Part shown: positions 2,735 through 21,069 of the stretch, in pieces
Layout: every line of letters starts with the position of its first letter
Position numbering within the stretch: the first letter of the stretch is position 1
Source of the DNA: Candidatus Tectimicrobiota bacterium
GTDB lineage: Bacteria; JACPSX01
Length of the DNA: 21,069 nt
Reading direction: 5' to 3'
Assembly: GCA_016193065.1 (NCBI GenBank)
Contig: JACPSX010000001.1
Span: 1 to 21,069 of the forward strand
Position numbers and translations under genes: made by a program
The notes under the pieces: generated by a model
What the model was told of the DNA's origin: nothing
The model's database searches: none
What the model saw: only the letters and a program-made list of their open reading frames with translations

Positions 2735-2755
2735 CTGTGACAGATCAGGTCACAG
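2735..2755 (-). terminator. Hairpin overlapping the stop of the WYL regulator gene
   Basis: CTGTGAC and GTCACAG form a perfect 7-bp stem around a 7-nt loop, extended by CCC/GGG after a bulge. The stop codon of the minus-strand gene lies inside the stem. It may act as a terminator or mRNA-end hairpin, but there is no clear U-tract. A related but weaker GTGAC/GTCAC pair occurs at 1189-1205. Confidence 0.35.
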
Positions 2756-3730
2756 AGGGAAACTATTAGGGAGAGGGGTTCTTGTTGTCATGTATCCGCG
2801 GGCGATTTTCCGAGCCTCTTCCTGCACCCTCTTCCCCAGGCTTTCCGGCTTGAGGACCCGGACGCCGCTGCCGAAGCTCAAAATCCAGCCCAGGAGCTCC
2901 CGGGTATCCGCCACCTGAAGGGACATCTTGAGGCGGCCGTCTTTCAGGAGAGTGAGCCGCTGGCTGTCGTGCCAGATCCGATCCTGGACCCAGGGAGCGG
3001 TGGACTTTGCAAAGACAAGTTCCACATCGATCCGCCGGCCCCGCATGATCACCAGAGCATCCCGCAGGTACGCCTCCAGATCAAACCCCAAGGGCATCTG
3101 GTATGGGTGGCTCGTTACAGTAAGGGAGCGGATGCGATCCACGGCAAAAGTCCGCACGTCCCTGCGGGTGTGGCAGTAGGCGATCAGGTAGAGGGCTCCC
3201 GCCATGTACCAGAGACGGTAGGGGTCCACTTCCCGGCGGGTGGTTTTGTTCCTTGAGGCGGTGTAGTAGCGCATCTGAACCGTCCGGGTCCGGTCAATGG
3301 CATGGGCGAGGCGGTCGATGGTCTCCCGATGCTCCCGGTAGGTCTTGTGGGGGCCGATCCCCACGGCAAACAGGTCTTGCATTTGCCGGACGTAGGTTAA
3401 CCCCGAGGGCGGCAGGGCCGCAGTGGCCTTGTTCAGGGCCGAATCCAGGGAAGCTTTGATCTCGGTCCCCTCCAGGGGTTTCAGGAGGTTGCGGCTAAAG
3501 ACCAGGGCCATGAGTTCCGTGGGGGAAAAGGCCAGAGGAAGGGCGCGTCGGTCGTTGACGAGGGGGAAGCCCGCGGCTTCCAAGGCCTCGAGGTCCCGGC
3601 GCAGGGTGCGAAGGTGTTTGGGAAAGTCATCCGGGAGGCTGTGCGCCAACTCCTGTAGCGTCGAGCCGCGGGGAGATTCCAGCCTCTGGAGTAGAAGCCA
3701 CTGGCGGATCACCTGGTCATTGCGGGGCAT
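2750..3730 (-). CDS. WYL-domain transcriptional regulator (DeoR-type HTH)
   Basis: This 326-residue protein has the standard three-part layout. Residues 1-65 form a winged helix-turn-helix (IRQWLLLQRLE, then HLRTLRRDLEALEAAGF). The middle WYL domain contains VDPYRLWYMAGALYLIAY and VRTFAVDRIRSLTV, whose Arg and aromatic residues bind ligands in the family. The C-terminal WCX extension reads LLGWILSFGSGVRVLKPESL. The frame stays open upstream to 4069, but the ATG at 3730 is preferred: GGAGG precedes it at 8 nt and homology starts there. It is divergent from the thioesterase gene, with a 208-bp shared upstream region, and may regulate that gene or itself. WYL regulators often sense nucleotides or DNA damage; the ligand here is unknown. 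Confidence 0.85.
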   Translation of the reverse strand: MPRNDQVIRQWLLLQRLESPRGSTLQELAHSLPDDFPKHLRTLRRDLEALEAAGFPLVNDRRALPLAFSPTELMALVFSRNLLKPLEGTEIKASLDSALNKATAALPPSGLTYVRQMQDLFAVGIGPHKTYREHRETIDRLAHAIDRTRTVQMRYYTASRNKTTRREVDPYRLWYMAGALYLIAYCHTRRDVRTFAVDRIRSLTVTSHPYQMPLGFDLEAYLRDALVIMRGRRIDVELVFAKSTAPWVQDRIWHDSQRLTLLKDGRLKMSLQVADTRELLGWILSFGSGVRVLKPESLGKRVQEEARKIARGYMTTRTPLPNSFPL

Positions 3731-3882
3731 GAAGTCTGCCTCCAGCGAAGCCAAAAGGAACAAGGACGGGAAAGGGAAGATGGGCTCCGGAAGTGCTGTT
3801 TGTCCTTGTGAGATATGCCCAATATACAACGATTTGAGGAGAGATCGCAAGAAAGGCGGGCTTTCGGAGCGGTTTTTCCAAA

Positions 3883-3911
3883 TTGAATTCACCCCGGGAA
3901 CTGTGTAAGTT
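3883..3911 (+). promoter_or_regulatory. Putative promoter for thioesterase gene
   Basis: TTGAAT (3883-3888), a 17-bp spacer and TAAGTT (3906-3911) lie 27 bp before the ATG. The spacer contains CGGGAACTGTG. A very similar arrangement (CGGGAACTCTG) occurs in the candidate promoter of the efflux operon at 6003-6030. Confidence 0.4.
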
Positions 3912-3938
3912 AGGGCCAAAGGTGAGCGGAGGACGACA

Positions 3939-4346
3939 ATGGGAGCCGAAAGTCTGGATCTTTTGCGGGAGAAGTTGCAGCAGGATCCTTTTGCCCGCGC
4001 TCTGGGAATCCGTCTCCTCCTGTTGGAGAAAGGGCTGGCCCGACTGGAGATGCCCCTCGGGGAGCACACCCGGAATTTCCTGGGGATGACTCACGGGGCA
4101 GCGATCTTTGCGTTGGCCGATCAGGCATTTGCCGCCGCCTGCAACTCCCACGGGGAGCGCTCGGTGGCCTTCAACGTGACGATCAGCTTTCTGGCCCCTC
4201 CCCGGGGAGATCGGCTCGTGGCGGAGGCCCGGGAGTTGAGCAGGAGCAAAAATGTGGGGGTCTACCACATCCAAGTCAATGACGCTGATGGTTCCGCCGT
4301 GGCCGAGGTCCAGGGGCTGGCGTATCGCCGGTCGGAGCGCACCTGA
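3939..4346 (+). CDS. PaaI-like hotdog-fold acyl-CoA thioesterase
   Basis: This 135-residue protein belongs to the PaaI group of hotdog thioesterases, which hydrolyse acyl- or hydroxyphenylacetyl-CoA thioesters in the cytoplasm. The diagnostic segment FLGMTHGAAIFALADQAFA carries the HG.IFALAD motif, with the catalytic Asp on the central hotdog helix. It is followed by VAFNVTISFLAPPRGD, the usual second strand pair, and the length is normal for the family. The ATG is preceded by GGAGG at 6 nt. It is divergent from the WYL regulator. There are no phenylacetate-catabolism genes nearby, so a housekeeping or detoxifying role in removing stalled CoA esters is as likely as phenylacetate degradation. 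The exact substrate is not predictable. Confidence 0.85.
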   Translation: MGAESLDLLREKLQQDPFARALGIRLLLLEKGLARLEMPLGEHTRNFLGMTHGAAIFALADQAFAAACNSHGERSVAFNVTISFLAPPRGDRLVAEARELSRSKNVGVYHIQVNDADGSAVAEVQGLAYRRSERT

Positions 4347-4409
4347 TTCCCGCCTGGATCGCCATGGGCCTCCGCCGTGATGTGCCGAGAGGTCAGCGAG
4401 GGATTGACA

Positions 4410-4964
4410 ATGAGAAGACAAAACGGGTGGCTGGTTTGTGCGGCTCTGTTTCTTGCTCTGGCAGGGCAGGGATGGCTGGCGACTCCCGTTGCCTCCTTCA
4501 CGGCTCAGGAGATCGTGTCCCTGAAACGAGCGGGGATCTCCGAAGAGGTGATCGCCCTCATGGTGGAGAAGCGCTCCGATGTCATGGGTCTGCTAAGCGC
4601 TCAAGACGCCTTGACCCTGAGGGCCGGCGGGGTCGGCGATCCCGTTTTGCGAGCGCTGCTCTCCCCGACACGGCAAGGGGGTTCACTGCAGAAGTTCCTG
4701 CCTGTCGAGGGGATCGTGCGCCTCAAGGAAGCCGGAGTCGGCGATGATCTTCTGCGCTACATACTTGACCGGTACCTGGAGATGAGCCGGGAGGAAGAGG
4801 CAGGGGTCTCCCGGGTCATCGTGGACCAATCGGGCCGCCGGGTCATCGTTTACGGAGATCGTGAACCCTCGCCTCGCTTGAAGGAGTTGGAAGAAAAGCT
4901 CAAGGAGTCCAGGGCCTGGGAGCTTTTGAAGACCATGGGCCTCATTGTGGACAAGAGGCCCTGA
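4410..4964 (+). CDS. Exported protein with short helical repeats, function unknown
   Basis: This 184-residue protein has a clear signal peptide: RR near the start, hydrophobic WLVCAALFLALAG, and probable cleavage near VAS-F. The mature part begins with FTAQEIVSLKRAGISEEVIA, related to VEGIVRLKEAGVGDDLLRYI later in the chain. Such 'I..L..AGI.D.VI..M' helical units occur in exported proteins of unknown function in several phyla. The C-terminal third, from about residue 120, is charged and predicted helical (RLKELEEKLKES). The ATG at 4410 is preferred over 4377 because the signal peptide then starts normally and GAGGG lies 7 nt upstream. It ends 11 bp before the oxidoreductase gene, so the two are probably cotranscribed. 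Confidence 0.65.
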   Translation: MRRQNGWLVCAALFLALAGQGWLATPVASFTAQEIVSLKRAGISEEVIALMVEKRSDVMGLLSAQDALTLRAGGVGDPVLRALLSPTRQGGSLQKFLPVEGIVRLKEAGVGDDLLRYILDRYLEMSREEEAGVSRVIVDQSGRRVIVYGDREPSPRLKELEEKLKESRAWELLKTMGLIVDKRP

Positions 4965-4975
4965 GGGGAGCGGGG

Positions 4976-5953
4976 TTGGGAAAAGGAGACCTCCGTTTCG
5001 GGCTCATCGGCTTGGGGCGGCACGGCAGCCGCTATGCGCGCCACCTGCTGCATGATGTGGCCGGAGCGGTGTTAGGAGCTGTGTGCCGGCGGGACCGCGC
5101 CGCCGGGGAAGAATTCGCCGCAGCGCACGGGGTGCCGTTTTTTGAAGATTGGCGGGAGCTGATCTGGTCCCCCGTTGTCGATGCCGTTGCCGTGGTCACC
5201 CCGCCCGCGCTGTACCTGCCGATTTCTCAGGAGACGGCCCGGGCTGGGAAGCCCTTGCTTTTGGAAAAGCCTCTGGGAACCAGCCCACAGGAAGCTCGGG
5301 CCATTGTGCAGGCGGCTGCCGAGGCCCGCATTCCCCTCATGGTGGCACAGACCATGAGATTCAGCGAGGTGGTCCAGACCCTCCTGGCCCACAAGCCGTC
5401 CATCGGACCCGTTCACATGCTGGTTCTAAGCCAGCGCCTGGAGCCCTCTCCTCTCGCCTGGCTGGATGATCCCGCGGCGGCTGGAGGCGGGACCATACTT
5501 CACACCGGCATCCATCTCTTCGATCTGGTTCGCTATCTGATGGAGGACGAGGTGGCCCAGGTCTCGTGCGTTGCGAGCCGGGTGTTTTCCCGACACCTGG
5601 AAGATTCTTTTGCCGCCCTGTTTACTCTGCGGTCGGGCTCCGTCCTTTGCCACCTCGATTCCTGCCGCTTTGCCGGTGGGCGGACGGGACGCATTGAGCT
5701 GGTGGGTGAAAAAGGACAGTTGATGGGGGATCACATTCACAACTTTGCCTGTCGCGTTGAAGGACGCCAGACCACCCCGCTTCCGGTTCCTCCTCCCGTA
5801 AATACGGTGTGCGCAGCCCTTGAGGCCTTTACCTCCTGCTTGCAGAAAGGGAAAGAGCCTCCGATCTCCGGCCAGGACGGGCTGCGGGCCGTGGAGATTG
5901 CCTGGGCCTGCCAGCGCTCTGCTCAACTTGGAGAGACGGTCCACTTGCCCTGA
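4976..5953 (+). CDS. Gfo/Idh/MocA-family NAD(P)-dependent oxidoreductase
   Basis: This 325-residue protein starts with a Rossmann nucleotide-binding loop, FGLIGLGRHGSRYARHLL. It has the LEKPLGTSPQEARAIV segment whose Glu-Lys-Pro motif is the family signature. The C-terminal alpha/beta domain includes GGTILHTGIHLFDLVRYLM, where the conserved His residues (HTGIH..D) position the substrate. Members oxidise or reduce sugars, inositols and related polyols with NAD(P). The substrate here is not predictable. The start is a TTG at 4976 with a GAGGGGAGCGGGG purine run before it; no ATG fits the Rossmann start. It follows the exported protein gene by 11 bp. A GC hairpin follows its stop. Confidence 0.85.
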   Translation: MGKGDLRFGLIGLGRHGSRYARHLLHDVAGAVLGAVCRRDRAAGEEFAAAHGVPFFEDWRELIWSPVVDAVAVVTPPALYLPISQETARAGKPLLLEKPLGTSPQEARAIVQAAAEARIPLMVAQTMRFSEVVQTLLAHKPSIGPVHMLVLSQRLEPSPLAWLDDPAAAGGGTILHTGIHLFDLVRYLMEDEVAQVSCVASRVFSRHLEDSFAALFTLRSGSVLCHLDSCRFAGGRTGRIELVGEKGQLMGDHIHNFACRVEGRQTTPLPVPPPVNTVCAALEAFTSCLQKGKEPPISGQDGLRAVEIAWACQRSAQLGETVHLP

Positions 5954-5971
5954 GCCCGGCACCCTCCGGGC
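5954..5971 (+). terminator. GC hairpin after oxidoreductase gene
   Basis: GCCCGG and CCGGGC form a perfect 6-bp stem with a 6-nt loop immediately after the stop codon. There is no T-run, so it is either a weak terminator or an mRNA-stabilising hairpin. Confidence 0.35.
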
Positions 5972-6002
5972 GGACCCCGGTTCAGCCTTGGCCAAATGGG
6001 GA

Positions 6003-6030
6003 TTGTATTTCTTCGGGAACTCTGTAAACT
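6003..6030 (+). promoter_or_regulatory. Putative promoter of RND efflux operon
   Basis: TTGTAT (6003-6008), a 16-bp spacer and TAAACT (6025-6030) lie about 45 bp upstream of the adaptor start. The spacer contains CGGGAACTCTG, shared with the candidate promoter at 3883-3911. Confidence 0.35.
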
Positions 6031-6075
6031 AGTTATCTGTCAAAGTAATAGCACTCGATGAAATCCGAGGTCTAA

Positions 6076-7347
6076 TTGTCCATGAGGTCCAGGAAGTTAA
6101 AAATCGCAGGGATTTTTTTGCTCATCGCGCTGGGCGCATTTGCTGGATACCGCCTGCTGCCTGTCCCCGGAACGAAGGCCGAGGAGCCCCGCCGGAGCCG
6201 GACCCAGGTCTTCCCGGTCCGCATCCAAAAAGTGTCCCCGGGGGACATAGAATACCGGCTCACGGCGACGGGGGACATCCTGGCGCTCATGCAGGTGGAC
6301 CTCCATCCCCGCGTCTCGGGATACCTGCAGTCCGTTCCGGTGCAGATCGGGATGCGGGTTGCCCAGGGACAGGTGATTGCCGTTGTGGATCAGGCCGAGA
6401 TCACGCAGAAGGTCAGAGAGGCCGAGGCGGTCTTGGCCAAGGCCAGAGCCCAGATGGCGGAGGTGCGGGCCGGAGCCCGGCCCGAGGAGCTGGCCCAGGC
6501 GGAAGAGAGCTGGCGCCAGACGAAATCCCGCCTGGAAAATGCCCGCATCAACCTGGAAAGAGTCCGCAGCCTGGTCAGAAACGGCTACGTGGCCCGCCAG
6601 GAGCTGGATAATGCACAACTGGCCTACGAGCTGGCGGAGGCCCAGTCGGTGGCCGCAACCAACCAGCTTGAGCTGGTTCGCAAGGGAGCGCGCGCCGAAG
6701 TCCGGGAAGCCATGGAGGCTCAGGTCAAACAAGCCGAGGCCACTCTCAACCAGCAGCGCCTCCAGTTGGAAAATACCGTGGTGCGGGCCCCGTTTTCCGG
6801 CAACATTTCCCGCCGCTTCGTCGATCCCGGAGCCCTGGTTTCGACTTCCACCCCGCTGGTCACGGTGGTCCACTCGGATACGGTCAAGGTTCTCGTCAAC
6901 ATTCTGGAAAAGGATCTCCCCCTGATCAAAGTCGGAGCGGCGATCTTCGTGCGCACGGACGCCTACCCCGACAAGGTGTTCCAAGGGCAGGTGGTGCGTC
7001 TCAACTCGGCTTTCGAGACGGCCAGCCGGACCCTGGTGGCCGAAGCCCACATCCAGAACCCGGGCGGAGCCCTCAAGCCCGGGATGTTTGCCCGGGTCGA
7101 GGTGCTCCTGGCCAGGAAATCGGCGGTCCTGCGGGTTCCCACGGATGCTCTCCTGAGGGATGAGGAGCGCAAGGCTACATTTCTCTACGTGGTGAACGGC
7201 GATAAGGTGTCGCGCAGGCCGGTGACGACCGGTCTTAGCCAGGATTCCGCCACGGAAGTGGTCTCCGGGCTTAAGGAAGGGGAGGCCGTTGTCACCGTGG
7301 GCCACCAGCGCCTGCGTGACGGGGCTTCCGTTCAGGTCATTCAGTAA
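6076..7347 (+). CDS. RND efflux periplasmic adaptor (membrane fusion protein)
   Basis: This 423-residue protein starts with a single membrane anchor or signal (KIAGIFLLIALGAFAGY). The first half of the barrel-sandwich (lipoyl-like) domain follows, with VDLHPRVSGYLQSVPVQIGM. A long alpha-helical coiled-coil hairpin then spans roughly residues 110-235. The second sandwich half reads TVVRAPFSGNISRRFVDPG, and the beta-barrel and membrane-proximal domains end with GLKEGEAVVTVGHQRLRDG. This is the MexA/AcrA type architecture that links an inner-membrane RND pump to an outer-membrane channel. The TTG at 6076 has GAGG at 5 nt; an ATG two codons later (6082) is an alternative. The permease gene follows after 13 bp. 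No TolC-like channel gene is adjacent, so one encoded elsewhere is presumably used. Confidence 0.88.
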   Translation: MSMRSRKLKIAGIFLLIALGAFAGYRLLPVPGTKAEEPRRSRTQVFPVRIQKVSPGDIEYRLTATGDILALMQVDLHPRVSGYLQSVPVQIGMRVAQGQVIAVVDQAEITQKVREAEAVLAKARAQMAEVRAGARPEELAQAEESWRQTKSRLENARINLERVRSLVRNGYVARQELDNAQLAYELAEAQSVAATNQLELVRKGARAEVREAMEAQVKQAEATLNQQRLQLENTVVRAPFSGNISRRFVDPGALVSTSTPLVTVVHSDTVKVLVNILEKDLPLIKVGAAIFVRTDAYPDKVFQGQVVRLNSAFETASRTLVAEAHIQNPGGALKPGMFARVEVLLARKSAVLRVPTDALLRDEERKATFLYVVNGDKVSRRPVTTGLSQDSATEVVSGLKEGEAVVTVGHQRLRDGASVQVIQ

Positions 7348-7360
7348 GTAAAGGAACAGC

Positions 7361-10300
7361 GTGGACCTCATCCGCGGCTCCCTGCAGAATCCCATCGGCC
7401 GGTTCATGTTCGCCATCGGCCTGATCCTGCTGGGGATCATCGCCTTCTCCAAGCTCGCCATCGATCTTTTCCCCGACATCACCTATCCGGTCGTCTCGGT
7501 GCTCACGGAATATGAGGGAGCGGCGCCGGAAGACGTGGAGGTGACCCTGACGCGCCCCGTGGAGAAGCGCCTGAGCCGCATTCAGAACGTCAAGAACATA
7601 TCTTCCCGGTCTCTGGAGGGCCTCTCCATCGTGACTGCCGAATTTTACTGGGGCACGAATCTGGATACGGCCACCGATGACATCCAGCAGGCCCTCAACC
7701 AGATCATCGATGATTTCCCCGACGACGCCAAGCGTCCCGTGATCTTCAAGTTCGACCCTTCCCAGATCTCGGTGATCACCTTCGCGGTCACCGGGACGAT
7801 GGACGAGTGGAAGCTGCGCGAGCTGGCTGAGGACACGATCGCCCCGCGCCTGGAAAGCATCCCGGGGGTCGCCGCAGCCAATGTTTTTGGAGGCAAGCGC
7901 CGGGAAATTCAGGTGCTGGTCGAACGCTCCCGTATGGAAGCTTCCGGCATCTCCATCCTCCAGGTCGTCGATGGAATCCGCCAGGCCAACACGGATGTTC
8001 CCGGGGGGAATCTCAAGGCGGGGAGCCGGGATTACAACGTCCGTACCCTGGGGCGCAGCACCCGGGTCGCTTTCCTGGAAGACCTGGTGGTCTCCAACCG
8101 AAACGGAGTTCCCGTTCGGGTCAAGGATATCGGACGAGTAGCGGACGGGTTCGAAGAGGAGGATACGGAGACCCGGGTGAACAGCGGAGCCGGTCTGGTC
8201 ATCGGCGTACAGAAGCAGATCGGGGGAAACACGGTCTCGGTCGTGGACACGATCTTGAAGGCCCTGCCCGCCATCCAGAGGGACCTCCCGAAGGGGACGG
8301 TCCTTGAGGTCATTAACGATCAGTCGCGCTACATCCGGAAATCCATCAAGAACCTCCAGCACGAGGCCATGATCGGCGCCCTTCTGGCTACGAGCATCGT
8401 GCTCATCTTCCTGCGCAACGTGAGCAGCACCTTGATCGTGGCCACCTCGATCCCGATCTCGATCCTTTCCACGTTTATCCTGCTCCACGTGAACCACCTG
8501 ACCCTGAACATCATGACCCTGGGCGGGCTCGCTCTGGGCGTCGGCCGTCTCCTGGATGACGCCATCGTGGTCCTGGAAAATATCAACCGCCACTTGGACA
8601 TGGGAGAGCCGCCGGAAGTGGCTTCCTACGAGGGGACCCGGGAGGTGAGCAAGCCGGTCATCGCCGCCACGATCACGAGCATCATCGTCTTTGTCCCGCT
8701 GGCGTTCGTGGAAGGGATCGCGACCGTTTTGTTCCTGCAGATGGCCTACACGGTGGCCTTCTCCTTGCTCGCGTCCCTGTTCGACTCCTTGACCCTGGTG
8801 CCCGTCCTGACTTCCAAGATCCTGGGCCGCCGCGAGCGTCCTGTCCGAGAGGAGTCCCTGGCGCGCAGGTTTTTTGTGAAAAGTCAGGATTTCTTTAATG
8901 GCGTTGATCAGCGCTACCAGAATCTCCTGTCCTGGGCCTTGAAACGCCGCCGCCTGGTTTTTACAGGGACTGGGGGAGTATTGGTCGCCAGCCTTCTGCT
9001 GGTACCCGCCATCGGCAGCGAGTTTTTCCCCAAGTCCGACGAGGGGAACGTGCGGATCAGCCTGCGGCTCCCCGTGGGAACGAGACTGGAAGAGACGCGC
9101 AAGGTGATCGAGCAGATCGAGGCCGTGGTGCGCTCCGAGGTTCCGGAAGTCGAGGCCATGTTTGCCCGGGCAGGCTCCGGGCGGGGCCGCTCGGTGATTT
9201 TCGGCGGCCGGTTCACCGGCCCGCACACGGGGTTCGTGTCGCTGACCCTTTCCGACAAATCCCGCCGCCGACGCTCCTCGGAGCAAATTGCCGCGGCCTT
9301 GCGTCCCAAGCTCTCCCGGATTCCCGGCGCCATTGTCACGGTGAACAGCGGCGGCCTGGTCTCGCGGGTCATCTCGTTCGGGTCGGAAGAGCCTCTGCGA
9401 GTCGAGATCATCGGGTACGACCTGGGGCTTTCCAGCCGCCTGGCCCGGGAAGTGGCCGAGTCCATGAGATCCGTGCCGGGCGTGACCGATATCCAGGTGA
9501 GCCGGGAAGAAGGCCAGCCCGAGTACAACGTGCGGATCCAGCACGACCGGGTCTCCAACATGGGTCTTACGGTGAGCCGGGTGGCCGACACGGTGAAATC
9601 CGCGCTGGGAGGCAAAGTCGCTTCCGTCTATATTGATCCAGCCACGGGCCGCGAGCATAACATCCGCGTGCGCCTCCAAGAGGCGGACCGGGGAGCTCCC
9701 CGGGACATTGAACGGATCACTCTTCCCATGGATAGCCGTGGTTCGATTTCCCTGGGCAACGTGGCTGAGCTGGTTGCGGCCACCTCCCCGACCCGGATCG
9801 AGCGCAAGTACCAGCAGCGGGCCGTCTTCGTCACCGCGGACAGCAGCGGCCGCGACTTTGGAAGTGTGGCTCGGGAAATTGAGAGCAATCTTGGCCGCCT
9901 GCAAGTTCCCGAGGGGTTCTCCATGAGGCTGAGAGGATCCCGAGAGGACCAGCAGCAAGCCTTCCGCTCCCTGGCTTTCGCCTTGCTGCTGGCCATTGTT
10001 CTCATCTATATGGTGCTCTCCGCCCAATTCGGTTCCCTGGTCCACCCCTTTCTCATTATGTTCTCGGTCCCCCTGGGATTCATCGGCGTCATCTGGGCCC
10101 TGTTCCTGACCGGAATCACCTTGAGCGTGATCTCCTTTATCGGCATCATCATGATGGTGGGGATCGTGGTCAGCAACGCGATCCTGCTGGTCGATTACAC
10201 GAACCTCTTGCGGGCGCGCGGGGTCGAGCTGGATCAGGCGGTGGTCCAGGCGGGCAGGACGCGGCTGCGTCCGATCCTGATGACGACGTTGACGACTCTT

Positions 10301-15889: not shown

Positions 15890-15971
15890 TGAGCTTGCCT
15901 ATTTTCATTACCTTATTCATTGCTTGGGCTTGGAAGTGACAAGCTCCAGCCATCGGGATGGAGGAATCAGC

Positions 15972-17147
15972 ATGGCAAAGTCGATTCGGGATCTGCTGGC
16001 GGAAGCCAAGCGGCAGGTGTGTGAAGTTTCCGCGCAGGATGTAAAGCGGATGCTCGAGAATCGGGAAGATGTGGTCCTCGTTGATGTGCGCGAAAAGGAC
16101 GAATACGGCAACGGCTACATTGACGGGGCCATTTACATTGGCCGGGGGATGCTCGAGTTCAGCGTAGAGAACCATGTTCCGGATAAACAAAAGAAGGTGG
16201 TCCTCTATTGCGCCCGGGGCAACCGCTCCGCTCTAGCCGGGCAAACCCTCCAGGCCTTGGGGTACACGAACGTCTATTCCATGGCGGGGGGGTTCCTGGG
16301 CTGGAAGGACAACGGTTTGCCCTTCGTGCAGGATAAGCAGTGGTCTCAAGAGCAGTTCTCCCGTTACAGCCGCCACTTCGCCCTGCGCGAGATTGGGGAG
16401 AAGGGACAGCGCAAGCTCCTGGAGTCTAAAGTGCTCCTGGTAGGCGCGGGTGGTTTGGGTTCGCCCTCGGCTATTTACCTGGCCGCCGCCGGGGTAGGAA
16501 CCCTGGGGATTATTGACTCCGACGTGGTGGATGTGAGCAATTTGCAGCGGCAGATCATCCATACGACGGCCAATGTGGGTAAGCCCAAAGCCGAGTCGGC
16601 CCGGGAAACAATTGCTGCATTGAACCCTGACGTGCGGGTGATTCCCTACAACTCCCGTCTTACGGCCGAGAACATCCTGGAGATTATCCGGGAATATGAC
16701 GTGGTCATGGATGGCAGCGACAACTTCGTAACCAAATACATGGTTAACGACGCCGCCTACTTGGCGGGCAAGCCCAACGTGTTCGGGAGCATCTTCCAGT
16801 TTGACGGGCAAGTAAGTGTTTTTCACCCGGATCGCGGCCCTTGCTACCGCTGCCTGTTTCCGGTCCCGCCGCCTCCGGGCCTCGTGCCCAGCTGAAGCGA
16901 GGCCGGTGTGCTGGGGGTCCTGCCCGGCATAGTTGGTCTGATCCAGGCAACCGAGGTGATCAAGCTGATCGTCGGAATCGGAGAGCCTCTGATCGGCAGA
17001 CTGATCGCTTACGATGCACTGGCCATGGAGTTCCGGGAGCTCAAAGTGAAGAGGGATGAGAATTGCCCTCTGTGCGGCACGGAACGGACAATCACGGAGC
17101 TGGCGAACTACGAGGAATTTTGCGGGGTGGCGGCACCCGCTGTCTAG
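15972..17147 (+). CDS. Rhodanese-MoeB/ThiF fusion, candidate selenoprotein (TGA at 16893-16895 read as Sec308)
   Basis: The frame gives 391 residues if TGA at 16893-16895 is decoded. Residues 15-115 are a rhodanese domain with active-site loop YCARGNRS (Cys80). From about 125 follows an E1-like adenylyltransferase of the MoeB/ThiF/HesA type: VGAGGLGSP (157-165) for ATP, MDGSDNF with the catalytic Asp, and zinc ligands CYRC (291-294) and CPLC (365-368). After GLVPS comes TGA, then SEAGVLGVLPGIVG in the same frame. MoeB relatives read VPSCAEAGVLGVLPG here, so the TGA replaces the conserved catalytic Cys that takes part in thiocarboxylate formation on ThiS/MoaD-like carriers. Reading stops at a TAG that shares CTAG with the converging pfkA stop. 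The ATG has GGAGG at 7 nt. Conventional calling would split it at 16895. The alternative is a point nonsense mutation. Confidence 0.85.
16902..16928 (+). promoter_or_regulatory. Candidate bacterial SECIS hairpin for Sec308
   Basis: Starting 7 nt after the TGA, GCCGG pairs with CCGGC. After a UGU bulge, GC pairs with GC; a U-U mismatch and a GG/CC pair then close an apical GGGU loop at nt 20-23 after the TGA. Bacterial SECIS elements are short coding-region hairpins with a G at the start of the apical loop roughly 16-37 nt after UGA. Folding was done by eye. Confidence 0.6.
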
Positions 17148-18426: not shown

Positions 18427-19602
18427 TTAACTGAAAAGCCTGTAGAGGAGACTAACAGCTCCCCCGCCCAGCACCAGCCAGGCGGAGTTCACCTTGAACC
18501 GAAACACACCGACCGTAGCAAGGATGAGGAGCGCTGCAGTGAACCAGTCGATTACAGACGCTCGCCCCAACTGCCAGGTGACGGTGGCCATCAGCGCCAG
18601 CGAGGCGACGTTGGCCCCGTCGAGAAACCCGCCGGCCCAAGGGGAATTTCGCAAACGCGGGATCAGGGGGCTGGAGGCGGCGACCAGAACAAAGGACGGG
18701 AAAAAGATGCCGACAGTCGCCAGAATCGCGCCCGGCCAGCCGGCGATCAGGTAGCCGATAAATGTGGCTGTGGTAAAGACGGGACCGGGAGTGAACTGTC
18801 CAACGGCTATCGCATCGATGAGCTGCTGGTCGGTGAGCCAGTGCCAGCGCTCCACCAGGTCAGCCCTCAGAAAGGCCAAGAGCACGTAGCCGCTGCCGAA
18901 CAGAATTGATCCGATTTTGAGGAAAAAACCGGTCAGCTTGAGCAGACTTATGGAGGCGCCGGCTGCAGCTCCTGTCGCCGCTTGAGCACCCGTGGCCGCC
19001 AGCAGCACCGGCCCGGCCATCACCCCCGCAGCGGCTTGTCGTGCCCGGCCCCGGCGCAAATTCGACAGGGCCATCACCAGGAAGGCGCTGGCAAACAGAA
19101 GGAAGACCTCGTTGATTCCGAGGAACGAGAGGATGGTCACGGCGATTCCAACGGCCCCCGTGAGCGACCCCTTCACCGCTTTCGTGCCAAGACTCCAGAG
19201 GGCCTGAAGGACAATGGCAATGATGACAGGCTTCACCCCGTAGAGGATCCAGACCGCTTGGGGGGCGGTGCCGTAGCGGGTGTAGGCCCAGGCTATGGCC
19301 AGCACGATTACCACGGCGGGAAGGATGAAGCAGGATCCAGCCGCAATGAGACCGCGCCAGCCGGCTCGGGTCAGGCCGATGTGGATGGCCATTTCCGTTG
19401 AGTTGGGGCCGGGGATGAGATTCGTTGCCCCGAGCAGGTCCAGAAATCGCTGCCGGGAGAGCCAGCCCCGGCGCCGCACCACCTCGTCCTCCATCATGGC
19501 GATGTGGGCGGCGGGTCCGCCGAAACCGATGGTCCCCAGCTTGAGAAACAGCCGGGCAATTTCTCCCAATCGGCCGGTGCCGTCGATGGGGTTCTGCCGC
19601 AA
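18427..19602 (-). CDS. chrA: Chromate transporter, ChrA (CHR) family
   Basis: This 391-residue inner-membrane protein has two homologous CHR halves. The first has KLGTIGFGGPAAHIAMMEDE and NLIPGPNSTEMAIHIG. The second has FLKIGSILFGSGYVLLAFL and VGQFTPGPVFTTATFIGY. FGG/FGSG and the PGP motifs are the family signatures, and about ten hydrophobic helices are visible. Characterised ChrA proteins export chromate using the proton gradient, though many relatives have unknown anion substrates. The frame is open up to 19716, overlapping the next gene, but a TTG at 19602 with AGGAGG at 8 nt gives the proper start. It is 67 bp after the multi-pass membrane protein gene in the same direction. Confidence 0.85.
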   Translation of the reverse strand: MRQNPIDGTGRLGEIARLFLKLGTIGFGGPAAHIAMMEDEVVRRRGWLSRQRFLDLLGATNLIPGPNSTEMAIHIGLTRAGWRGLIAAGSCFILPAVVIVLAIAWAYTRYGTAPQAVWILYGVKPVIIAIVLQALWSLGTKAVKGSLTGAVGIAVTILSFLGINEVFLLFASAFLVMALSNLRRGRARQAAAGVMAGPVLLAATGAQAATGAAAGASISLLKLTGFFLKIGSILFGSGYVLLAFLRADLVERWHWLTDQQLIDAIAVGQFTPGPVFTTATFIGYLIAGWPGAILATVGIFFPSFVLVAASSPLIPRLRNSPWAGGFLDGANVASLALMATVTWQLGRASVIDWFTAALLILATVGVFRFKVNSAWLVLGGGAVSLLYRLFS

Positions 19603-19669
19603 GTCAATTACCTCCTCTCGATCCAGGGCTGGCCGCTGATTGCTGACCGTATGCTTTCTCTGGTGAGTC

Positions 19670-20242
19670 TTACACCCACCCGTAGGGAATTCGGCTGCGG
19701 TACACTCTCCAGGCAAACAGGGCGGCTAGCACGATCAGAATAACTGTCAGCGAGGCTGCGAAACGTGAAACAACCTGAAGTCCCAACAGCACGGTGGTGA
19801 TCACCAGGAAGAGGCAGGTGGCTGCCAGCCGCTTCCGCCTGAGCCGCAGCGGGCCAATCTGGGCAGCGATTGCTTGGGGGAGAGCATCCCCTTCGGCCTT
19901 TGCCAGGAGCCCATCGATCTGGGGCTGGAGAGAGAAGTGGACCAACGAGAGGGTGAGGACCAGCAGGAGGAGAAACTTGACCAGGAGGATCCAGTTCGTA
20001 AACAGGGGGGTCAAAGACCCTTGCAGGCTGATGAGCAGAAGGCCCGTTGCCAGCGCAGTCAGCTGGAAAATGTAGCATCGGATTGAATTTCCCCGGATGA
20101 GGTTCTCAAAATACTGGTCCACCTGGAGGTGGGCCTTTCCGAACCGGGCCCTCTCGTTGACCACGACGAGATTGTAGAGAGGAGCCGCCATGAACACAAC
20201 CGTCAGGATGTGGAGAAACTTAAAAAAGTCATAGAGACTCAT
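19670..20242 (-). CDS. Multi-pass membrane protein, function unknown (CopD/DUF2269-like)
   Basis: This 190-residue protein has about four membrane helices: FKFLHILTVVFMAAPLY, FQLTALATGLLLI, ILLVKFLLLLVLTLSLV and, near the end, a pair starting CLFLVITTVLLGL. A conserved-looking His in the first helix (FLHIL) recalls DUF2269 and CopD-like proteins, where such residues bind haem or metal, but I cannot assign it firmly. A basic loop (RLRRKRLA) lies before the last pair. The ATG at 20242 has GGGAGG at 9 nt. It lies between the DUF2892 selenoprotein candidate (159 bp upstream) and chrA. The 159-bp gap contains an imperfect inverted repeat TTGACCAGT...ACTGG, possibly a control site. Confidence 0.6.
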   Translation of the reverse strand: MSLYDFFKFLHILTVVFMAAPLYNLVVVNERARFGKAHLQVDQYFENLIRGNSIRCYIFQLTALATGLLLISLQGSLTPLFTNWILLVKFLLLLVLTLSLVHFSLQPQIDGLLAKAEGDALPQAIAAQIGPLRLRRKRLAATCLFLVITTVLLGLQVVSRFAASLTVILIVLAALFAWRVYRSRIPYGWV

Positions 20243-20401
20243 CTGTCCCGCCCTCCCATCGGTTTCTCCTGTGGTCCTCGGAAAGAGTTCCACCGGAAGA
20301 CACTCTGATCTCCCTAAAAAGAGGAAAGAGGAGATTGCTAGAGGTCTTGACTTTTGCCCAGTTTAAGTGTCGACTGGTCAATCCTCAATGAGCCAAACTG
20401 C

Positions 20402-20608
20402 TCATTTTTCAGCCTTGTCCTTCACGCCTGCGGCCCGCAGGATCACCATGGACGGTCAGAAGTTCGTGAAGGCCGACTGGACCAAATTGATCCCCATCAG
20501 ACCGGTCAGCCAGAGCCACGCGGCATTGTGAAAGACCGCGAGGAGGACACTGGCTAGAACAACGATTCCTCCAAGCAGTCGAAGCCACTGTTCCATGTAA
20601 AGCTTCAT
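20402..20608 (-). CDS. DUF2892-family small membrane protein, candidate selenoprotein (TGA at 20456-20458 read as Sec51)
   Basis: This 68-residue protein starts at an ATG with GGAGG 8 nt upstream. It has two membrane segments, RLLGGIVVLASVLLAVF and AAWLWLTGLMGINLV, then QSAFTNF, an in-frame TGA, and PSMVILRAAGVKDK before the real stop (another TGA). DUF2892 proteins, including the membrane part of the rhodanese YgaP, typically read LNLFQSAFTGFCPxxxILxxLGVK. The TGA thus replaces the invariant Cys of the Cys-Pro motif, and the following residues match the family in frame. If the TGA were a true stop, the protein would lose the whole conserved tail. It follows the outer-membrane protein gene by 50 bp. 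The gene is too short and interrupted for standard callers. Confidence 0.8.
20427..20441 (-). promoter_or_regulatory. Candidate bacterial SECIS hairpin for Sec51
   Basis: CCUGCG and CGCAGG form a perfect 6-bp stem closing a GGC loop (or 5 bp with a GGGCC loop). The apical loop starts 20-21 nt after the TGA, and its first bases are G. Position, loop composition and stem strength fit the bacterial SECIS pattern. The hairpin lies within coding sequence. Confidence 0.65.
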
Positions 20609-20658
20609 CTTCCCTCACCTCCTTTCTTCGATCCCCTGCCTACTGGGTCAGGCATGCC

Positions 20659-21069
20659 TTAGAAGGCGTAGCGGGTGACCACGTAGAGGTTCGCGTTCCC
20701 CTTAAACTGGCCAAACTCGGTGCGGCGCGGCCCGCCGAAGAGATTTACCCCGAAGGTGCCCGACAAGGCATCCGTGATGTTGTATCTAACCTCAGGGTTT
20801 ACATAGTAGTCCCCTTCGTTGGGGCTCGCCAGGGCAAAGAGGCCAAGCCTGAGCGTCTGGTGAAGGAAGAGCTGGGTCAGCCTGACAGTGAGGACGTGTC
20901 GGGCGGCCGGCCGCTCAGGCATCCCCGGGGCCCGCGTGCTTAGGTACTCCCGATGGTCCTCCATTACCTGGACATAGTACTGGGTAGAAAGTGTCAGGTC
21001 CGGCACGATCTCTCGCTGGTATCCAGCGAGGAACCTGACAGAGGAGTTCTTAACGGAAGGATTCCGGCC
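20659..21069 (-). CDS. Outer-membrane beta-barrel protein, C-terminal part (5' end outside window)
   Basis: The last 136 residues are visible; the gene enters from the right edge of the window. Alternating hydrophobic and polar strands are clear: VRFLAGYQREIVPDLTLSTQ, HVLTVRLTQLFLHQTLRLGL, DYYVNPEVRYNITDALSG and NLYVVTRYAF. The final Tyr-Ala-Phe is the typical BamA-recognised end of outer-membrane porins. It resembles uncharacterised barrel proteins found next to DUF1302-type proteins, but the missing N-terminus prevents a firmer name. An internal GTG at 21006 is not the start, since the frame and strand pattern continue to the window edge. It is 50 bp upstream of the DUF2892 candidate, so the two may be cotranscribed. 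Confidence 0.7.
   Translation of the reverse strand, partial: GRNPSVKNSSVRFLAGYQREIVPDLTLSTQYYVQVMEDHREYLSTRAPGMPERPAARHVLTVRLTQLFLHQTLRLGLFALASPNEGDYYVNPEVRYNITDALSGTFGVNLFGGPRRTEFGQFKGNANLYVVTRYAF

Follow-up and report, generated by a model that had tools for sequence, protein, structure and literature searches.

Does the TGA that lies inside a small membrane-protein gene near one end of the window (the whole 21,069-nucleotide stretch of Candidatus Tectimicrobiota DNA analysed here) stop translation, or is it read as selenocysteine (Sec)? The gene starts with an ATG at 20608 on the minus strand and runs for 68 codons including the UGA (Table 1); with UGA written as U, its translation is MKLYMEQWLRLLGGIVVLASVLLAVFHNAAWLWLTGLMGINLVQSAFTNF-U-PSMVILRAAGVKDKAEK. 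A first-pass annotation had described a 68-codon gene with a strong ribosome-binding site, encoding a DUF2892 membrane protein. Both points stand: the frame holds, with GGAGGTG 7 nt before the ATG, and the 68-residue product matches a single Pfam domain, PF11127 (YgaP-like_TM; E value 6e-12, 45.9 bits), above the gathering cut-off of 25.3. An AlphaFold model (mean pLDDT 73, modest) contains two helices, residues 2–26 and 29–48, and places residue 51 directly past helix 2. Foldseek found no match to this model in the PDB, an unsurprising result for a 68-residue helical hairpin modelled at pLDDT 73, and no NCBIfam model matches the protein.

Table 1 Position of the DUF2892 gene, its signals and related features in the window
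Feature	Position	Strand	Remark
DUF2892/YgaP-like transmembrane gene, one in-frame UGA	20402..20608	minus	68 codons + TGA stop
In-frame TGA, codon 51, predicted selenocysteine	20456..20458	minus	invariant Cys column of [FW]CP motif
Terminal TGA of DUF2892 gene, read as stop	20402..20404	minus	homology of relatives ends about here
Shine–Dalgarno GGAGGTG of DUF2892 gene	20616..20622	minus	7 nt before ATG
SECIS-like hairpin CCTGCG-GGC-CGCAGG	20427..20441	minus	identical in all 8 Methylomirabilota loci of the gene, including 3 truncated copies
C-terminal part of DUF1302-type outer-membrane porin-like protein	20659..21069	minus	directly upstream of predicted Sec gene, cut by contig end
Rhodanese–MoeB/ThiF fusion, in-frame TGA at 16893-16895	15969..17147	plus	supports Sec use on same contig

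Codon 51 is where the family has its Cys. In an alignment of 18 members the UGA coincides with an invariant Cys, that of the [FW]CP motif, bearing out the initial proposal that the TGA occupies the invariant DUF2892 Cys. Scanning ~85,000 genomes once with the degenerate pattern N-L-x-Q-x-x-[FL]-[TS]-x-[FW]-UGA-P gave 20 matches, 7 of which are DUF2892 genes with UGA in frame; the other 13 lie outside DUF2892 and were discarded as chance. The seven belong to Methylomirabilota/Rokubacteria (L051, from Rokubacteria CSP1-6, L053 and L065), Desulfobacterota (L052, Desulfobacterales; L062, Desulfobacula) and Nitrospirae (L054 and L066). Whole-genome searches around the scan matches added L110 from Methylomirabilota and L159, L182 and L183 from Nitrospirota, which brings the distinct UGA sequences, that of the window included, to 12 in these three phyla. 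The window genome (G000) stood alone in its 'phylum' search, and relatives were sought via G386, G390 and G391. One other candidate, L028, was rejected, its TGA lying after the gene end and not at the Cys.

Where the 12 copies carry UGA, the other aligned homologues carry Cys. Copies lacking the TGA are far commoner: of 185 genomes with a match in the Desulfobacula class only 2 are exceptions, and for Nitrospirota (194 genomes) such copies account for almost every match listed. Within Nitrospirota, UGA and Cys versions are near-identical proteins in similar gene order, so that the TGA/Cys pairs suggested at the outset as a check do exist, down to orthologues of this closeness. A DUF2892 tree (99 rows and 58 columns, weak; row L163_Cys, a spurious frame, was ignored) implies five switches between Sec and Cys, of which supported branches force three; with just 58 columns in the tree, this number is rough.

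This distribution bears on two simpler accounts. The TGA might be a true stop, or the gene a recently inactivated one whose downstream half is a relic, and the truncated or frameshifted copies in three related genomes, like the frameshift in L065, would fit such decay. That the same UGA codon recurs at the Cys column in 12 distinct copies from three phyla speaks against it, as do the conservation of the protein sequence past the UGA, the starts and ribosome-binding sites intact in most copies, the conserved operon position and the lack of further stops in the intact copies, save for the TGA that L053 has in place of a Trp codon; we consider this account highly improbable. Alternatively, a TGC or TGT could have been misread as TGA: the named UGA records are metagenome assemblies, and L053 and L065 have likely errors elsewhere in the gene. 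The same error would then have had to arise separately in assemblies that come from different projects and cover different phyla, each time hitting the Cys codon of a gene that also has the hairpin, and we attach negligible weight to this possibility.

Several individual copies are irregular. In L053, codon 33 of the gene (at about 5468-5470) is a second TGA, Trp in other copies; a second Sec there would be odd, and we read it as probably a sequence error. L065 has its frameshift within a G-run. Three Methylomirabilota genomes hold deleted or frameshifted copies (L113, 1501-1620; L118, 1501-1575; L120, 1501-1560), a sign of its decay in some lineages; at the Sec position, L120 reads TGG.

Downstream of the UGA lies a hairpin that may serve as the SECIS element. 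Bacterial SECIS elements are stem-loops with G in the first loop positions, roughly 16–37 nt after the UGA, and fdhF-type elements have a hairpin spacing like that of the window, where the stem begins 14 nt and the loop about 20 nt past the UGA. The first-pass annotation had placed a 6-bp hairpin with a GGC loop 21 nt downstream; the hairpin is there, and the distance fits its loop but not its stem. An equivalent fold, CCTGC-GGGCC-GCAGG, has a loop beginning with GG. The window contains the string CCTGCG-GGC-CGCAGG a single time, where shuffled sequence would be expected to have none. Its stability is not unusual in comparison with same-composition, GC-rich shuffles (z = 0.28); because the folding energy matches that of the shuffles, stability alone proves nothing, and the thermodynamic z-scores, not being significant, were set aside as evidence. 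The evidential weight of the hairpin is in its conserved place and frozen codons, not in its stability.

For each copy we took the best hairpin that has a G among its first two loop positions and whose loop starts 19–27 nt away from the U that opens the UGA or Cys codon, and compared it with hairpins of the same gene after shuffling of synonymous codons. Every one of the 12 UGA copies has a stem-loop with G among the opening loop positions in the bacterial SECIS range given above, with a best hairpin of −6.2 kcal/mol or lower (mean −10.3), whereas the median for 86 Cys copies is −1.1 kcal/mol and most of these lack a SECIS-like hairpin. The two groups differ in energy (Mann–Whitney, p = 2.7e-7) and in the synonymous-codon test (p = 7.8e-7), both values being rough because copies within a clade are related; taken singly, no Methylomirabilota copy except L110 reaches p < 0.05 in the synonymous-codon test. 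The conservation of the hairpin, another of the checks proposed initially, thus separates UGA copies, which all keep it, from Cys copies, which mostly do not have it. Hairpin codons 57–60 are identical in all five intact Methylomirabilota copies, and 15 of 23 conserved residues in codons 13–50 vary silently; the hairpin 15-mer is kept even in the truncated L113, L118 and L120. Stems differ by phylum (CCTGC/GCAGG, ATCCTCA/TGGGGAT and CTTCGCC-type), with the place and a GG or AG loop start constant. In Nitrospirota the loops vary (GGGCTA, GGGCGA, GGTCGT, GGTTAC) around a constant stem and leading GG. The Cys gene L156 (G916:C244, at 1642) has nearly the same hairpin as its Sec-type sister L183, probably a fossil SECIS left after a Sec-to-Cys change.

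The organism also has part of the machinery for Sec. In its assembly (2.9 Mb, 294 contigs, 86% complete), contig C175 encodes a full-length SelB, and there are two copies of selD (L102/L099 on G000:C175; L101 on G000:C120), both with a single in-frame TGA; on the SelB contig this TGA has the classical CAG-U-AGK position. By eye, C175 also carries phosphonate-type ABC transporter genes. SelB and SelC had been named at the outset as the components to look for. The first is present; selC, like selA, was not found in this 86%-complete, 294-contig assembly, where the Rfam matches to tRNA-Sec proved to be tRNAs of other kinds, those for Ser, Leu and Trp among them. The selB of two Rokubacteria relatives is immediately preceded by selA, with tRNA-Sec upstream in the same stretch; the window genome has selB near a contig end, and the 259 nt before it do not resemble selA. 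An assembly gap is the likely, if unproven, reason for the missing selA and selC. Both relatives examined for selA have it. Among the seven pattern-scan genomes with a UGA copy, ARAGORN finds a tRNA-Sec with TCA anticodon in all seven and SelB is full and above cut-off in six; SelB is likewise present in G464, G975 and G1167, which hold further UGA copies. Having SelB does not tell a Sec genome from a Cys genome here, as most genomes of these phyla encode it, many with only Cys copies among them; it is necessary but not diagnostic.

A second UGA gene lies on the same contig. The description of the DUF2892 TGA as the 'second' in-frame TGA was apt, the other being that of the rhodanese–MoeB gene, in the context PS-U-SEAGVLG followed by a strong hairpin; MoeB is a listed selenoprotein family (PMC13188914).

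These observations weigh on a further account, in which UGA is read as Trp or Cys through a changed code or a near-cognate tRNA. The TGG of L120 and the L053 codon that is TGA where others have Trp could be taken as hints of it. L120, however, is a deleted and frameshifted copy, TGA also terminates the DUF2892 gene of the window, the UGA sits at a Cys column and not a Trp column, and genomes with UGA copies have SelB, tRNA-Sec and UGA-containing selD, all of which makes a reassigned codon extremely unlikely. The TGA at codon 51 very probably encodes Sec instead. Support for this reading comes from the in-frame UGA at an invariant Cys, the repeated UGA/Cys exchange, the hairpin, and the Sec machinery that both the organism and related genomes encode.

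What such a protein would do must be sought among its neighbours. The porin fragment upstream of the gene has no Pfam match; its family was named through the homologues in L053 and L184, and it is 68% identical to the porin that precedes the UGA gene in a relative. Clusters around the DUF2892 gene in relatives from all three phyla contain an HAE3/MMPL transporter, a LolA-like periplasmic carrier (PF17131) and a DUF1302-type porin. Nitrospirota clusters add a rhodanese, as a separate gene, a YeeE/YedE-type Sulf_transp protein (without UGA), DsrE, an SQR-like flavoprotein and ArsR regulators, and the cluster of the Desulfobacterales copy adds an ArsR–rhodanese fusion, TauE/SafE and a Sec-type selD. 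That copy, L052, has the ArsR–rhodanese fusion, selD, TauE/SafE, MMPL and UGA DUF2892 genes in one gene run (2750-7952), a possible island of selenium or sulfur genes. In the window, no sulfur gene adjoins the DUF2892 gene; a chromate transporter (PF02417) and a DUF2269-like membrane protein lie downstream of it at 18427-20293 on the minus strand.

In the mechanism that we propose, SelB with Sec-tRNA would bind the hairpin about 20 nt downstream of the UGA during translation, and Sec would be inserted at codon 51 to give a 68-residue inner-membrane protein with two transmembrane helices. The Sec would lie just beyond the end of helix 2, at the place of Cys159 in E. coli YgaP, which is near the reported thiocyanate site (PMC4730233), and could be the reactive nucleophile there, at the membrane face, accepting sulfane sulfur (of persulfide, thiosulfate or thiocyanate type), reducing it or handing it on. 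Its candidate partners would be the products of the neighbouring genes, namely the MMPL transporter, the LolA-like carrier and the DUF1302 porin; in other phyla, the rhodanese, DsrE, SQR-like and YeeE/YedE proteins might take part as well. Our best guess links the uptake, reduction or relay of sulfane sulfur at the membrane to export across the envelope. Membrane-located chemistry of this kind, on sulfane sulfur or of redox type, is suggested by the neighbours and by analogy with E. coli YgaP and is put forward tentatively, at somewhat less than an even chance.

The MMPL, LolA-like and porin neighbours point to the export of lipids or hydrophobes as much as to sulfur. The main rival to a sulfur function, one that leaves the Sec reading untouched, accordingly makes envelope lipid or hydrophobe export by the MMPL, LolA and porin proteins the principal job, with the selenoprotein assisting assembly or acting as a redox switch, and with sulfur genes added only in particular lineages. 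In its favour, distantly related bacteria have the three export genes beside Sec and Cys copies alike; it is mainly Nitrospirota that carry the rhodanese, YeeE, DsrE and SQR-like genes, and Desulfobacterales have ArsR, rhodanese and TauE; and the MMPL neighbours are nearest to HAE3, with weak similarity to hopanoid or sterol transporters. Sulfur chemistry, by contrast, would suit the exchange of a single reactive residue for Sec beside rhodanese, SQR-like and DsrE genes, the ArsR regulators, whose similarity to BigR is sub-threshold, and the induction of a DUF2892 gene elsewhere: Dsui_0042 of Azospira rises ~10-fold under sulfide oxidation, although its deletion has hardly any effect (PMC5358917). 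Lipid export with a redox-active partner is a serious possibility, albeit one that we hold to be rather doubtful.

In the most far-reaching reading, the protein would stand for an unlisted selenoprotein family, among the smallest of membrane selenoproteins, with Sec at the membrane face. MMPL pump, LolA-like carrier and porin would be its companions in a conserved envelope module for the export of sulfur (or selenium) in at least three phyla, and the family would switch repeatedly between Sec and Cys. We rate this combined picture as falling just short of even. SECIS-directed Sec at a Cys site is of a known kind; as far as could be checked, the DUF2892 family is new to the list. Among the open-licence papers searched, we found no mention of DUF2892 with selenocysteine, of YgaP with selenoprotein, or of PF11127, and DUF2892 is absent from the 119 prokaryotic selenoprotein families tabulated in 2026 (PMC13188914); in these sources the first-pass remark that a selenocysteine DUF2892 protein has yet to be named is borne out. 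Standard annotation would cut such genes short at the UGA, a possible reason for the family having so far gone unlisted. If the reading is correct, the bacterial selenoproteome gains a family, a reactive atom is placed in a domain whose Cys (C159 of YgaP) has only a tentative role, and the little-studied MMPL/LolA/DUF1302 cluster becomes tied to sulfur or selenium handling. The near-identical Nitrospirota Sec/Cys pair offers a clean way to probe DUF2892 chemistry.

The 2026 table includes YeeE/YedE, a MerT-like mercuric transport protein and type III SQR. Its families resemble the window protein in having UGA at a Cys position, and several handle sulfur or metals, but none is PF11127/DUF2892; the MoeB selenoprotein (PF00899), with its own UGA and hairpin in the same window, belongs to a listed family and is an unrelated protein. 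Among stand-alone DUF2892 proteins, Dsui_0042 is linked to sulfide exposure (PMC5358917), and the Cys paralogue L017 of the window genome is of the same length class, shares the Cys motif and is followed by a rhodanese gene. Stand-alone Cys proteins of this kind differ from that of the window in their Cys codon and, for most copies, in having no conserved SECIS-like hairpin. A structural reference is the transmembrane domain of E. coli YgaP (PF11127, PDB code 2MPN; profile match E value 1e-6), a protein whose in vivo substrates are unknown (PMC9774250). It has the same two-helix membrane domain, with C159 at the end of helix 2, the position of the UGA in the window. The fused rhodanese that marks YgaP as a sulfurtransferase is lacking in the window protein: YgaP joins a cytosolic rhodanese domain to a Cys-bearing membrane domain, whereas the window protein stands alone, with a UGA, and presumably Sec, in place of that Cys.
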